From Sporomusa acidovorans (GTDB lineage: Bacteria; Bacillota; Negativicutes; Sporomusales; Sporomusaceae): a stretch of DNA of 64,000 nucleotides. The notes under the pieces are model-generated. The model did no database searches. It was not told the origin of the DNA and saw nothing but the letters and a program-made list of their open reading frames with translations. The DNA is taken from the NCBI RefSeq assembly GCF_900101845.1, contig NZ_FNAM01000001.1, forward strand, positions 310,001 through 374,000. Direction: 5' to 3'. Made by a program: the position numbers and the translations under genes. Shown here piece by piece: positions 12,600 through 61,461 of the stretch; positions within the stretch are counted from its first letter, which is position 1, and each line of letters begins with the position of its first letter.

Positions 12600-12870
12600 A
12601 ATAGAGTTACCAGCGCCTGCAATCAGTTTTTCTAGGAATGGATAATCCTTGTATACGCTATCTGGATACTATAGTAGACCCACTGTGCTGTTTTTTCCGC
12701 CTCAATCAGTCCCACCATTCTCAACCTGTTTAAGTGTTTTGATGTGGCAGACTGTGAAACAGATAAAATCTGCTCAATTTCGCAGACACATTTCTTGCCG
12801 CTTTGAAGACAGCACATAATCGCTATGCGATTAGAATCTGCAAGCGCTTTTAAAACCTGACGTAATTCAT
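12600..12870 (-). pseudogene. Frameshifted ArsR-family repressor gene
   Basis: Read across frames the minus strand gives a full ArsR/SmtB protein: ELRQVLKALADSNRIAIMC, then CEIEQILSVSQSATSKHLNR (winged helix), WVYYSI, then DSVYKDYPFLEKLIAG. The ATG at 12870 keeps a GTAGGTG ribosome site, but one base is missing just after it, so translation from it stops within seven codons. A second shift after YYSI truncates the C-terminus. The remaining open frame starts at an internal ATG (12817) and lacks the first helices. Two independent frameshifts argue for a dead gene rather than a sequencing slip. No arsenic or metal export gene is nearby. Confidence 0.75.
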
Positions 12871-12901
12871 AGACACCTACCCGAATACCTATTACATTCT
12901 T

Positions 12902-12921
12902 ATATTCCCATATTGGAATAT
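12902..12921. promoter_or_regulatory. Inverted repeat, candidate ArsR operator
   Basis: ATATTCC-N6-GGAATAT lies 30-50 bp upstream of the decayed arsR start, where ArsR-family repressors bind their own promoters. The symmetry is perfect over seven bases per arm. Function is inferred from position only. Confidence 0.45.
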
Positions 12922-13056
12922 GATTACTATCATTATATGATTGCCTAGTGAAAATGCAATCCTTAGCGCAAATCTAAATTCATTGTTTTTTGGCGTGCAT
13001 TAATGCTGCAAAATATAAAGGAGAATAAATTTAATTCTCAAAAGAACATTCTATTT

Positions 13057-13326
13057 TCAATATCTCCCCGTTTCACTAATTTTTCTGCCATCAAATAAGA
13101 ATCGAATAATAGTTAGTATTTCCGACGACTTCATCTGGTCTTCGTAGCCTAGTTCTTTAAATTCGGTCCAGATACTATTTTGTATTTCATGAGAAATCTC
13201 TTTAAGCTTTCGAATTTCTGCAACAACAACTCTGATTTCGTCATTATCCATTAACATAATAATTCCCTGTGCTCTTAGTTTGCCAATCATTACAAGAAAT
13301 ATTGCTACTTTTTTTATTGGTGACAA
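13057..13326 (-). CDS. Stand-alone FliG N-terminal-domain-like protein
   Basis: The 89-residue product resembles only the N-terminal domain of the flagellar switch protein FliG: KKVAIFLVMIGKLRAQGII near residue 5, then MDNDEIRVVVAEIRKLKEIS, in place of the FliG pattern of an alpha-helix pair that binds FliF. The middle and C-terminal FliG domains, including the torque helix, are absent. A TTG start at 13326 has AAGGAGG eight bases upstream. It follows the HD-GYP gene by 91 bp in the same direction, with no terminator seen between, so it is probably under the same c-di-GMP riboswitch. It could bind FliF or FliG and modulate motors. The homology call is from sequence pattern only. Confidence 0.65.
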   Translation of the reverse strand: MSPIKKVAIFLVMIGKLRAQGIIMLMDNDEIRVVVAEIRKLKEISHEIQNSIWTEFKELGYEDQMKSSEILTIIRFLFDGRKISETGRY

Positions 13327-13417
13327 AAAAGCTTCCTCCTTGGTAGTTAGTTCGGTTATCTATTGTATTCATATAATGAATTCTAATACGGATATGGTCT
13401 TCCTTGTAGTAGGATGA

Positions 13418-14416
13418 TTACTTATTTACTCCGAATAGATCTTTTTGAAATAAGTCAATAAATTTTTTACTAAGCACAGGATCAAACTGTAGCCCTGCAC
13501 CTCTCTTAATCTCCTCTAACGCTTGATTTATAGTAAATGGTTTTCGATAGCACCGTACCGAAGTCATCGCATCATAGGAATCGCATAATGCTAACATTCG
13601 GCTAAATTTTGGTATATCCTCACCCCTTACTCCTTCCGGATAGCCCATACCATCATATCTTTCGTGATGATAGCGAACTGCTTCGGCAATCTTTTCAAAT
13701 CCACTTATTTCAGCAAGAATATTGGCACCAATATCAGGATGGCGCCTAATAAAGGTAAACTCTTCTTTCGATAACTTGGCTGGTTTGTTTAAAACATCCT
13801 CTGGTACTCCAATTTTACCGATATCATGAACAACCCCCGATAAATATGCTAAATTTACTTGTGTTCGAGGTAATCCTAGAAATTCCGCAAACTCCATCAT
13901 TAAATTCGCCACATGCTCACTATGCTTTCCGGTATACGTATCTCTAGCGTCTATAGCCTTGGCAAATGATCTAATAATATCGACACCTATATGTTCGAGT
14001 GCTTCTTCAAATGCCTTATAGTGGTTAATTGGCGTATAACACGCCGCCACATATTGCGGCTTCCCTGATTGATCCCGTTTTAGATAGGTATTAACTAAAC
14101 ACCAATTATCTTTAACGAATATTGGTATATAACATTCTACTCTGGCTAATTCTTTATTGACTTCTAAAGTTTCTATCAGCGGAAAATTATGTTTTCCTTG
14201 ATAAGAAAGGTCTTTTCCTCGATAAAAAGGTTTCTTTCCTTGATAAAAGGCATCAGAAAGGGAATGTCCGAGTATATTATATTTCTGATTTTCAACCCAA
14301 CGGCAAAAAGCATTATTTACATAGTGTATGATAAAATCAGCATCAATTACAATCCAGCCATAATTTTGCCGATTATTAATTACATCAGCAATAAATGCCG
14401 TAATTTCAACGTTCAT
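13418..14416 (-). CDS. PAS-HD-GYP cyclic-di-GMP phosphodiesterase
   Basis: The 332-residue protein has a PAS domain (about 10-130) and an HD-GYP domain (about 145-325). Key residues are visible: HSEHVA (metal ligand region) near 166, H197-D198 in VVHDIGKIG, HH at 250-251 and the G258-Y259-P260 motif in GMGYPEG. HD-GYP enzymes hydrolyse c-di-GMP to pGpG or GMP. Within the PAS domain, residues about 58-77 are three copies of a seven-residue unit (YQGKKPF, YRGKDLS, YQGKHNF) encoded by 21-bp tandem repeats. ATG at 14416 follows GGTGG. Transcription comes through the c-di-GMP-I riboswitch upstream, giving product-linked feedback. Confidence 0.92.
   Translation of the reverse strand: MNVEITAFIADVINNRQNYGWIVIDADFIIHYVNNAFCRWVENQKYNILGHSLSDAFYQGKKPFYRGKDLSYQGKHNFPLIETLEVNKELARVECYIPIFVKDNWCLVNTYLKRDQSGKPQYVAACYTPINHYKAFEEALEHIGVDIIRSFAKAIDARDTYTGKHSEHVANLMMEFAEFLGLPRTQVNLAYLSGVVHDIGKIGVPEDVLNKPAKLSKEEFTFIRRHPDIGANILAEISGFEKIAEAVRYHHERYDGMGYPEGVRGEDIPKFSRMLALCDSYDAMTSVRCYRKPFTINQALEEIKRGAGLQFDPVLSKKFIDLFQKDLFGVNK
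14192..14254 (-). repeat. Three 21-bp tandem repeats inside the HD-GYP gene
   Basis: Units 14192-14212, 14213-14233 and 14234-14254 share TTTCCT(T/C)GATAA. They encode three Y(Q/R)GK-type heptapeptides in the PAS domain. The in-frame unit length would allow copy-number change without breaking the gene. Confidence 0.8.
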
Positions 14417-14555
14417 AAATAAAAATCCACCAGTGCAACTGACTGATGACTCAGTAATAATGAAAAAAGCTCTTTTCTCAACACCGTACCACCTTTATTT
14501 TATCCAGACTGCAATGATAACTATTTAAATAATTTAATCCGCTTATTTTGATAAC

Positions 14556-14586
14556 AAAAAAACCAGGCAGGTTGCCTGGTTTTTTT
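14556..14586 (-). terminator. Riboswitch expression platform terminator
   Basis: A 14-bp stem (14556-14569 with 14573-14586, core CCAGGCA) ends in a seven-T run on the minus strand. The minus-strand segment GCAACCTG (14575-14568), which covers the loop and part of both arms, can instead pair with CAGGTTGC at 14606-14599 just 3' of the aptamer. That gives an eight-base antiterminator. Confidence 0.88.
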
Positions 14587-14599
14587 GTCCATATATCAG

Positions 14600-14690
14600 C
14601 AACCTGGCAATCATAGAAAAAAATCTTTAGACCCATGGCTTTGCGTCCTTATCTTTCGATAAGTTTGCCAAAAATATTAACTTTTTCCTT
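14600..14690 (-). ncRNA. Cyclic-di-GMP-I (GEMM) riboswitch
   Basis: On the minus strand the GEMM-I consensus is nearly complete: GGCAAAC, then hairpin CTTATC-GAAA-GATAAG, then GGACGCAAAGCC, then GGGTCTAAAG. The 5' GAAAAA and 3' TTTTTTC flanks can form the closing helix. The aptamer starts at the predicted transcription start and is followed by an antiterminator/terminator pair, then the HD-GYP gene. Ligand identity follows from the family (a G at the GAAA-receptor-type junction binds c-di-GMP); a cGAMP variant cannot be fully excluded by eye. Confidence 0.92.
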
Positions 14691-14719
14691 ATATTACAAT
14701 GATTTACATCAATAGTCAA
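14691..14719 (-). promoter_or_regulatory. Promoter of the riboswitch-HD-GYP transcript
   Basis: TTGACT (14719-14714), a 17-bp spacer and TAATAT (14696-14691) give a good sigma-A promoter. The predicted start near 14684 falls at the 5' edge of the riboswitch. Confidence 0.75.
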
Positions 14720-21799: not shown

Positions 21800-22084
21800 C
21801 TATCTTTTACCCAAACGCTGATCCAACCGGTAGATATAAGCTAATACCTCAGCCACTGCTTGGTATAGTTCTGGAGGTATTTCTTGGTCCAGTTCAACCG
21901 CCATCAGCATACCTGTAAGCGTTTTATTTTGATAGATAGGAATCCCATGCTCATTTGCAGAATGCAATATCCTGCCAGCTACGGCACCTGCACCTTTTGC
22001 CACAACTTTCGGTGCGTGACCGTCGTGTTCATTATATTTTATTGCAACAGCTTTAGGTAATTTGTCGCGTTCTATATCAGACAC
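21800..22084 (-). CDS. FlhB C-terminal-domain-like protein (YlqH/FhlX type)
   Basis: The 94-residue protein is a stand-alone version of the FlhB/SpaS cytoplasmic domain: KAVAIKYNEHDGHAPKVVAKG, then GIPIYQNKTLTGMLMAVELDQEIPPELYQAVAEVLAYIY. Unlike FlhB the N-P-T-H self-cleavage motif is absent. These small paralogs may substitute for the C-terminal part in flagellar export. It sits between rnhB (4 bp upstream) and yraN, as ylqH does in Bacillus. Confidence 0.9.
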   Translation of the reverse strand: MSDIERDKLPKAVAIKYNEHDGHAPKVVAKGAGAVAGRILHSANEHGIPIYQNKTLTGMLMAVELDQEIPPELYQAVAEVLAYIYRLDQRLGKR

Positions 22085-61181: not shown

Positions 61182-61219
61182 AAAAATCCCGTCTCTGTAT
61201 TTCTACAGGGACGGGATTT
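61182..61219 (-). terminator. T-box terminator
   Basis: A 16-bp stem with one G-U (61184-61199 with 61204-61219, arm AAATCCCGTC at the base) followed by T-rich sequence, just 3' of the T-box core. Confidence 0.9.
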
Positions 61220-61461
61220 AATAATCCGTGGTACCACCCTGCTTGCTTTATCGCAAGCCGCTTTTTCAGGTACGGGAACTGCGTCCGATACCCTAGCCTT
61301 GTTAACGGTGGCACACCGGCGCGGTCTACTCATTTCTTTTCAACCTGCTGCTTATGAGTGTATTTCAGTTAATCTGCTTACCGGTTCGCACCAGTCACCG
61401 GCTCTCTGAAAAGCATAACAAACCTACTTTTCTCAGTCATTGCATTTGTCAATTGCTATTA
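61220..61461 (-). ncRNA. T-box leader (probably tyrosine-specific)
   Basis: The minus-strand leader has AGAGAGCCGGTGACTGGTGC, GAACCGG and the T-box core GGGTGGTACCACGG (near 61226-61239). The candidate specifier is TAC in GAAATACACTCA, with TGAG near the 5' end pairing with CTCA after it to close stem I. The core UGGU would pair with ACCA, which fits tRNA-Tyr with discriminator A. Another specifier register is possible. Antiterminator and terminator are both visible. Confidence 0.85.

Follow-up and report, generated by a model that had tools for sequence, protein, structure and literature searches.

The riboswitch of the c-di-GMP-I class found in a Sporomusa acidovorans locus is best read as a transcriptional OFF switch of an HD-GYP c-di-GMP phosphodiesterase gene, with a gene for a small protein resembling the N-terminal domain of flagellar FliG (FliG-N) probably on the same mRNA. 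We give this reading, which draws on modelled RNA folding and on comparison with characterized switches, a probability of roughly 70%. An earlier note on this DNA had proposed that rising signal induces its own hydrolysis; that regulatory sense is probably inverted, as the predicted antiterminator borrows the 3' strand of the aptamer P3 and the terminator forms beside a forced aptamer. The circuit is thus probably self-reinforcing and not self-limiting, with high signal predicted to shut off its own hydrolase. Comparative analysis further suggests that the sampled hydrolase genes of the bacterial class tend to lie behind c-di-GMP switches of the OFF type.

The window, i.e., the whole 64,000-nucleotide stretch of contig NZ_FNAM01000001.1 that was analysed, contains the riboswitch, the HD-GYP gene and the stand-alone FliG-N-like gene lined up on the minus strand (Table 1), and this arrangement, as the earlier note had described it, is confirmed. 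The consensus promoter that had been placed ahead of them is present as TTGACT-17-TAATAT; however, similar sites are about as frequent in shuffled sequence (13 of that quality in the scanned stretch vs. 11.1 expected) and the promoter is therefore only plausible. By eye, the TGA of a putative leader ORF overlaps the ATG of the HD-GYP gene (ATGA). The 91-bp gap between the HD-GYP and FliG-N-like genes holds no terminator-like site, and the top promoter-like site upstream of the latter matches only 7 of 12 consensus positions; read-through is therefore likely, and the FliG-N-like gene is probably on the HD-GYP mRNA and hence under riboswitch control.

Table 1. Features of the riboswitch, HD-GYP and FliG-N-like locus, in window positions
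Feature	Position	Strand	Details
Sigma-70-like promoter TTGACT-17-TAATAT	14719-14691	minus	9/12 consensus matches, spacer 17; plausible
c-di-GMP-I (GEMM-I) aptamer, complete	14679-14595	minus	Rfam RF01051, 78.9 bits
Antiterminator 5' half CAGGUUGC, predicted	14606-14599	minus	part of the aptamer P3 3' strand plus two bases beyond
Intrinsic terminator	14589-14553	minus	17-bp stem, 3-nt loop, U7 tract
Antiterminator 3' half GCAACCUG, predicted	14575-14568	minus	within the terminator, spanning its loop and the loop-proximal bases of both arms
Possible 23-codon leader ORF	14484-14413	minus	GTG start behind AAAGGTGG; read by eye
Second, weak terminator-like site	14449-14427	minus	8 pairs (3 G-C), ahead of the HD-GYP start
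HD-GYP gene, 332 aa, PAS-like N-terminal region	13418-14416	minus	Pfam HD_5, E 4e-36
SD of FliG-N-like gene, AAGGAGG	13336-13342	minus	ahead of the TTG start
Stand-alone FliG-N-like gene, 89 aa	13057-13326	minus	TTG start; Pfam FliG_N, E 4e-10

The HD-GYP protein shares with known HD-GYP phosphodiesterases the HD_5 domain and intact HD and GYP motifs (HDIGK and HHERYDGMGYP), and we predict from these that it hydrolyses c-di-GMP; its two N-terminal PAS matches (E 6e-4 and 8e-4) lie under the Pfam cut-offs. Where it differs from those enzymes is in its predicted regulation, its expression being repressed through RNA by its own substrate.

The aptamer, earlier called near-complete, is in fact complete: the covariance model RF01051 aligns over positions 1-87 of 87 with an E-value of 7e-14, and the score, against a gathering score of 35, places the whole element in the c-di-GMP-I (GEMM-I) family. 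It has a G at the column that we take to be Vc2 G20, and this residue presumably favours c-di-GMP as the ligand. The eight-base antiterminator/terminator element described before was likewise recovered, as the complement CAGGUUGC/GCAACCUG together with a 17-bp terminator hairpin; when the 46 nt that follow the 12-nt aptamer end were shuffled by mononucleotide 5000 times, 8 of the shuffles gave a complement to that end of the same length.

RNA folding, which the earlier note had suggested as a check, was performed stepwise on the transcript, using the RNA ending at GCAACCUG and then the RNA with the U tract, with energies that leave out tertiary contacts, ligand and kinetics. It was consistent with a switch, in that the antiterminator is best before the terminator is completed and the terminator is best once the U tract is made. 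In the shorter RNA, the antiterminator is the minimum-energy fold at -30.3 kcal/mol, as against -21.4 kcal/mol with the aptamer forced, and contributes -32.1 of an ensemble energy of -32.2 kcal/mol. In the longer RNA, the terminator folds best, at -38.1 kcal/mol when free and -35.7 kcal/mol with the aptamer forced, vs. -30.7 kcal/mol for the antiterminator. From these energies on either side of the U tract, the decision would be kinetic. The predicted terminator remains intact beside the forced aptamer, so the two can coexist, and none of its 14 tail pairs has its 5' arm inside the aptamer. As the 5' half of the antiterminator is the P3 3' strand, ligand should block the antiterminator and allow the terminator; with an aptamer and terminator that coexist, c-di-GMP should therefore cause termination. 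A separate terminator implies an OFF switch only given such an antiterminator, and by itself is no proof of one. The gain from aptamer-to-downstream pairing in this leader was matched by 8 of 60 dinucleotide shuffles, so the antiterminator energy alone is not decisive and the sense of the switch rests more on architecture and precedent than on energy statistics.

The closest precedent is Cd1 of Clostridioides difficile, which has the same OFF architecture as that predicted here: as described in PMC9262584, its aptamer and terminator coexist and a transiently stable antiterminator takes an aptamer strand, whereas the pilM ON switch has an aptamer and a terminator that are mutually exclusive. 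The predicted CAGGUUGC:GCAACCUG fold likewise takes an aptamer strand into the antiterminator. The pilM switch of Geobacter metallireducens, a GEMM-I riboswitch that senses cGAMP, has an aptamer homologous to the one in the window, but its design, in which the aptamer 3' strand doubles as the terminator 5' arm, is not that of the window switch. That ON design fits 10 of the 12 c-di-GMP-I switches that we identified in the S. acidovorans genome; separate terminators are seen only in the window switch and one other (L002). From motifs and by-eye reading of translations, the targets in this genome include methyl-accepting proteins, a sigma-54-type regulator and a response-regulator GGDEF protein (RR-GGDEF; GGEEF with an RxxD motif), the last preceded by an ON-type switch (L009) whose orthologue group is ON in 5/5 cases. 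Cd1 precedes a flagellar operon. Its target is flagellar, whereas that of the window switch is a c-di-GMP phosphodiesterase, so that here the feedback acts directly on the signal. In C. difficile, according to PMC3649979, a class-I OFF switch precedes flgB, and of 12 class-I switches only one does not respond negatively to c-di-GMP.

Under the OFF reading, at low c-di-GMP CAGGUUGC of the P3 3' strand would pair in the nascent RNA with GCAACCUG of the terminator and the polymerase would read through; the hydrolase would be made and c-di-GMP kept low. At high c-di-GMP, the ligand would hold P3, the antiterminator would lose its 5' half and the independent terminator would form, such that neither the hydrolase nor FliG-N would be made and the high signal would sustain itself by positive feedback. 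The choice would be kinetic, the terminator winning when a ligand-held aptamer withholds the antiterminator strand.

The riboswitch-phosphodiesterase link itself is supported, as it recurs elsewhere. A search of 380 genomes of the class at E<=1e-84 gave 22 homologues of the HD-GYP protein, itself included, distributed over 19 genomes (S. acidovorans among them); the 8 other genomes of the genus had none at that threshold. An Rfam scan of the other 21 loci, each with ~1.5 kb of flanking sequence, placed a c-di-GMP-I aptamer directly upstream of two PAS-HD-GYP homologues (L048 in G057 and L104 in G044) and none in the fetched flanks of the other 19; together with the lack of a match at that threshold in the 8 congeneric genomes, this makes the riboswitch-phosphodiesterase unit sporadic. 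In both of these leaders the terminator is separate, and before its 3' arm is made its 5' arm pairs with the P3 5' strand of the aptamer. They would thus use another aptamer strand than the window switch with the same predicted sense, with shuffles matching the cross-pairing in 1 of 60 cases for L104 and 38 of 60 for L048.

Two other readings of the switch have to be weighed against the OFF reading. One is that c-di-GMP promotes read-through, so that the signal induces its own hydrolysis in a negative feedback. Such homeostasis is intuitive, the ON design is the commoner one in the S. acidovorans genome (10/12) and one phosphodiesterase-linked switch elsewhere (G057:C13:87322) is of the ON type; yet the window terminator draws none of its 14 tail pairs from the aptamer and forms with the aptamer forced, and we consider this reading improbable. 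We regard it as quite improbable, too, that the leader is a non-switching attenuator, whose strong terminator forms with or without ligand beside a relic aptamer. Consistent with such an attenuator, the full-length terminator folds 7.4 kcal/mol better than the antiterminator, 8/60 shuffles match the antiterminator pairing gain, and the sporadic HD-GYP gene (19/380 genomes; 0/8 others of the genus at E<=1e-84) indicates that the riboswitch-phosphodiesterase unit may have been acquired. However, the aptamer, at 78.9 bits, shows no visible decay, the 8-nt complement is improbable by chance (8/5000 shuffles) and the pairing of riboswitch and HD-GYP gene is also seen in two genomes from another family.

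For a wider comparison of switch design with the downstream gene, we located aptamers in 27 more genomes using Infernal coordinates (106 matches in 12 genomes and 133 in 15) and fetched the flanks of 123 of these 239 matches, from 16 genomes. The first set was used with 4 rows left out, one of them below the cut-off; from the second we took all matches of G017 (4), G044 (6) and G057 (11), chosen for holding phosphodiesterase-linked switches, and 2 of 17 from G038, chosen for a nearby HD-GYP or FliG-N match. With the 12 switches of S. acidovorans and the above L048 and L104, the sample comprises 137 aptamers from 17 genomes. Each was classed by the strength of the terminator with and without the aptamer tail: those that need the tail are ON, whereas those that form without it are separate. 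Downstream genes were labelled by motifs within ~1.5 kb, with HD-GYP or EAL, alone or combined with GGDEF, denoting a phosphodiesterase; some unlabelled genes may therefore be phosphodiesterases.

The above procedures revealed that of 17 phosphodiesterase-linked switches 15 have separate terminators, with one ON (G057:C13:87322) and one ambiguous (G016:C60), both before HD-GYP genes, vs. 47 separate, 65 ON and 8 ambiguous among the 120 switches before other genes (Fisher p = 8e-5; 7e-5 to 8e-4 across 12 threshold settings). When proteins were grouped at 40% identity, all 7 phosphodiesterase groups were separate vs. 30 of 66 others (p = 0.011), with 3 of 76 groups dropped as ambiguous or tied and with few (7) independent phosphodiesterase groups; random draws of 7 groups were all separate in 126 of 20000 cases. 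A repeat on the 13 nearly whole genomes (114/118 matches), which leaves out G017, G038, G044 and G057, gave 10 separate and one ambiguous among 11 phosphodiesterase-linked switches and 39 separate, 57 ON and 7 ambiguous among 103 others (p = 2.6e-4), or by group 6/6 vs. 28/60 separate (p = 0.025). These figures suggest that the sampled hydrolase genes of the class prefer switches of the predicted OFF type.

On the synthase side, 5 of 8 GGDEF-labelled leaders are ON, all from the one RR-GGDEF orthologue group, and the remaining 3 are separate; this rules out an ON switch before every GGDEF gene. As 2 of the 3 GGDEF-labelled groups have separate terminators (one of these also including HD-GYP proteins), support for an ON design before synthases comes from a single orthologue group. 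Three genomes (G000, G003 and G007) combine the ON synthase switch with a separate-terminator switch before a phosphodiesterase gene; G014 has the ON synthase switch with a separate-terminator switch before a GGDEF-labelled relative of EAL proteins, and in G016 the ON synthase switch is accompanied by the ambiguous phosphodiesterase-side switch.

We also scanned the separate-terminator leaders for pairing, with the 15 phosphodiesterase-linked ones and the above GGDEF-labelled relative of EAL proteins (G014:C25) as a set of 16. At least 6 of the final 25 bases of the pre-terminator RNA pair with the aptamer in 13/16 of this set and in 36/46 of the other separate leaders, and the pairing gain is reached by at most 6 of 60 shuffles in 5/16 and 18/46, respectively. 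The phosphodiesterase-linked separate leaders thus show no stronger aptamer-to-terminator pairing than the other separate leaders.

The 89-aa FliG-N-like protein matches Pfam FliG_N above the cut-off over profile positions 2-63 of 104 only. It lacks FliG_M and FliG_C, and scores 29.8 bits against the NCBIfam fliG equivalog, whose cut-off is 226.7. A profile of its family hits FliG chains whose structure has been solved (5TDY, E 2e-9), and HHalign pairs it with FliG from this bacterial group at a probability of 95% over 72 columns; the likeness to the FliG N-terminal domain (FliG_N; 5TDY, 5WUJ, 8UMD) covers about the first 63 profile positions. In contrast to FliG, the family is stand-alone and has its own invariant M-D, a conserved GY and an NGSKI-like C-terminal tail. 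Homologues were found in 30 of 100 genomes, that of S. acidovorans included; the 30 aligned proteins (81-97 residues) share invariant F10, M26, D27, E30, G60 and G80, and their genes, by BLAST bounds, start with TTG (23), GTG (3), TTA (3) or ATA (1). A phylum-wide search gave matches in 7 of 398 genomes, with short stand-alone frames only in S. acidovorans and one other (G651); the other five are 336-348 aa, i.e., full FliG length. FliG_C is present in 28/30 genomes with the FliG-N gene vs. 39/70 without it (Fisher p = 1.6e-4, kinship ignored), the two FliG-N genomes lacking it being 65% and 89% complete; counted by family, the figures are 12/12 vs. 13/20 (p = 0.03). This co-occurrence is consistent with a flagellar role, and is the one observation that speaks for the action on the flagellar switch suggested in the earlier note. 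The likeliest role, we infer, is that of mimicking FliG-N and perhaps occupying FliF.

The earlier note had seen the FliG-N-like gene as part of a compact feedback module and had suggested searching related genomes for the same gene order. Among the 29 other FliG-N loci, taken as one per genome (second copies in G001, G007, G008 and G064 left out; flanks of L031 and L037 shortened by contig ends), none has a homologue of the window HD-GYP protein or a c-di-GMP riboswitch within ~1.5 kb, and the order was thus absent. These 29 loci speak against a conserved riboswitch module including FliG-N; the gene is probably a local addition, a rider that is co-transcribed. The FliG-N genes of G038, G023 and G001 lie ~1.8, 2.5 and 6.6 kb, respectively, from an aptamer and are not adjacent to it. 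Upstream neighbours of FliG-N genes vary widely, and G007 has three copies within ~14 kb that travel with a 68-aa partner. Both these observations and the 29 loci argue that FliG-N is functionally independent, a dispersed small-protein gene that lies by chance behind the phosphodiesterase and is transcribed by read-through, which we consider quite likely and which fits any sense of the switch. Against full independence, the gene, with neither terminator nor good promoter after the phosphodiesterase, should share riboswitch control; across the 30 FliG-N upstream regions no consistent sigma-70 or sigma-28-like site was found, and the gene may still have a promoter of its own.

Many c-di-GMP-I riboswitches are already reported to neighbour genes that make or degrade c-di-GMP (PMC7266159). 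Opposite riboswitch signs on synthases and hydrolases did not appear in the titles and abstract openings retrieved by searches of open-licence papers, and an earlier description is possible. For C. difficile, PMC6200980 suggests that high c-di-GMP may be buffered by a moderate rise of several phosphodiesterase transcripts, while one GGDEF-EAL gene was down 5.1-fold.

An OFF switch of the hydrolase together with the ON switch of the RR-GGDEF gene (L009) would add up to two positive feedbacks, a circuit in which c-di-GMP can become bistable. With both arms self-reinforcing, the regulon may, by RNA alone, switch in a bistable manner between a low and a high c-di-GMP state. Only tentatively do we extend this to a class-wide opposite wiring, with OFF switches before HD-GYP and EAL hydrolases and ON switches before the single RR-GGDEF orthologue group, and a FliG-N decoy made only in the low-signal state of S. 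acidovorans. Riboswitches usually help keep their ligand steady. An RNA switch that silences the hydrolase of its ligand would have the reverse effect and can lock the cell in a high-signal state, and the opposite-sign pattern makes bistability testable leader by leader. The FliG-N family, well-conserved and found almost only alongside flagellar FliG in the 100 genomes, is in turn a candidate modulator of motor assembly.

The stand-alone FliG-N-like genes, represented by 30 family loci (L016-L045), mostly begin with TTG (23 of the 30 members), and a clear Shine-Dalgarno sequence precedes most of these TTG starts. In G007, another genome of the same class, three FliG-N copies lie inside ~14 kb, each within a two-gene repeat of ~0.6 kb whose partner gene encodes a conserved protein of ~68 aa; a GACCCCATAGG hairpin separates the two genes. 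The FliG-N gene with this partner is also seen at L020, L022 and L257. The window itself contains a second separate flagellar domain, a stand-alone FlhB C-terminal domain encoded ~8.5 kb from the FliG-N gene. By eye, the frame of the ArsR-type HTH gene seems to continue upstream past its first ATG and to have none of the usual start codons there.

Coordinates of features in the window and at the G007 locus L256
Feature	Position	Strand	Details
ArsR-type HTH gene	12632-12950	-	downstream of FliG-N gene
23-codon ORF	14413-14484	-	GTG start behind AAAGGTGG
Weak terminator-like hairpin	14427-14449	-	8 pairs, 3 G-C, then ATTTTTATTT
Stand-alone FlhB C-terminal-domain protein	21800-22084	-	Bac_export_2, profile 262-335 of 335
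T-box leader	61204-61449	-	125.7 bits
FliG-N two-gene repeats (G007)	L256 1910-2528, 6839-7455, 15894-16512

The S. acidovorans genome has a second riboswitch whose terminator forms without an aptamer strand (L002, C83:97456), and the gene after it encodes a small membrane-like protein. Two other genomes, G001 and G007, have a leader and small protein that look similar to these by eye, with an HD-GYP gene next in line. Three of the 12 aptamers of this genome (L008, L009 and L012) have A in place of G at the column that we take to be Vc2 G20, a substitution that shifts aptamer preference towards cGAMP. The gene after L009 encodes a canonical-looking GGDEF protein, and three of the four switches orthologous to L009 have G at this presumed column.

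Between the riboswitch and the HD-GYP gene, the weak terminator-like hairpin sits immediately ahead of the HD-GYP start, and the TGA of the 23-codon ORF overlaps the HD-GYP ATG as ATGA. This ORF could possibly serve in translational coupling to the HD-GYP gene or encode a leader peptide.
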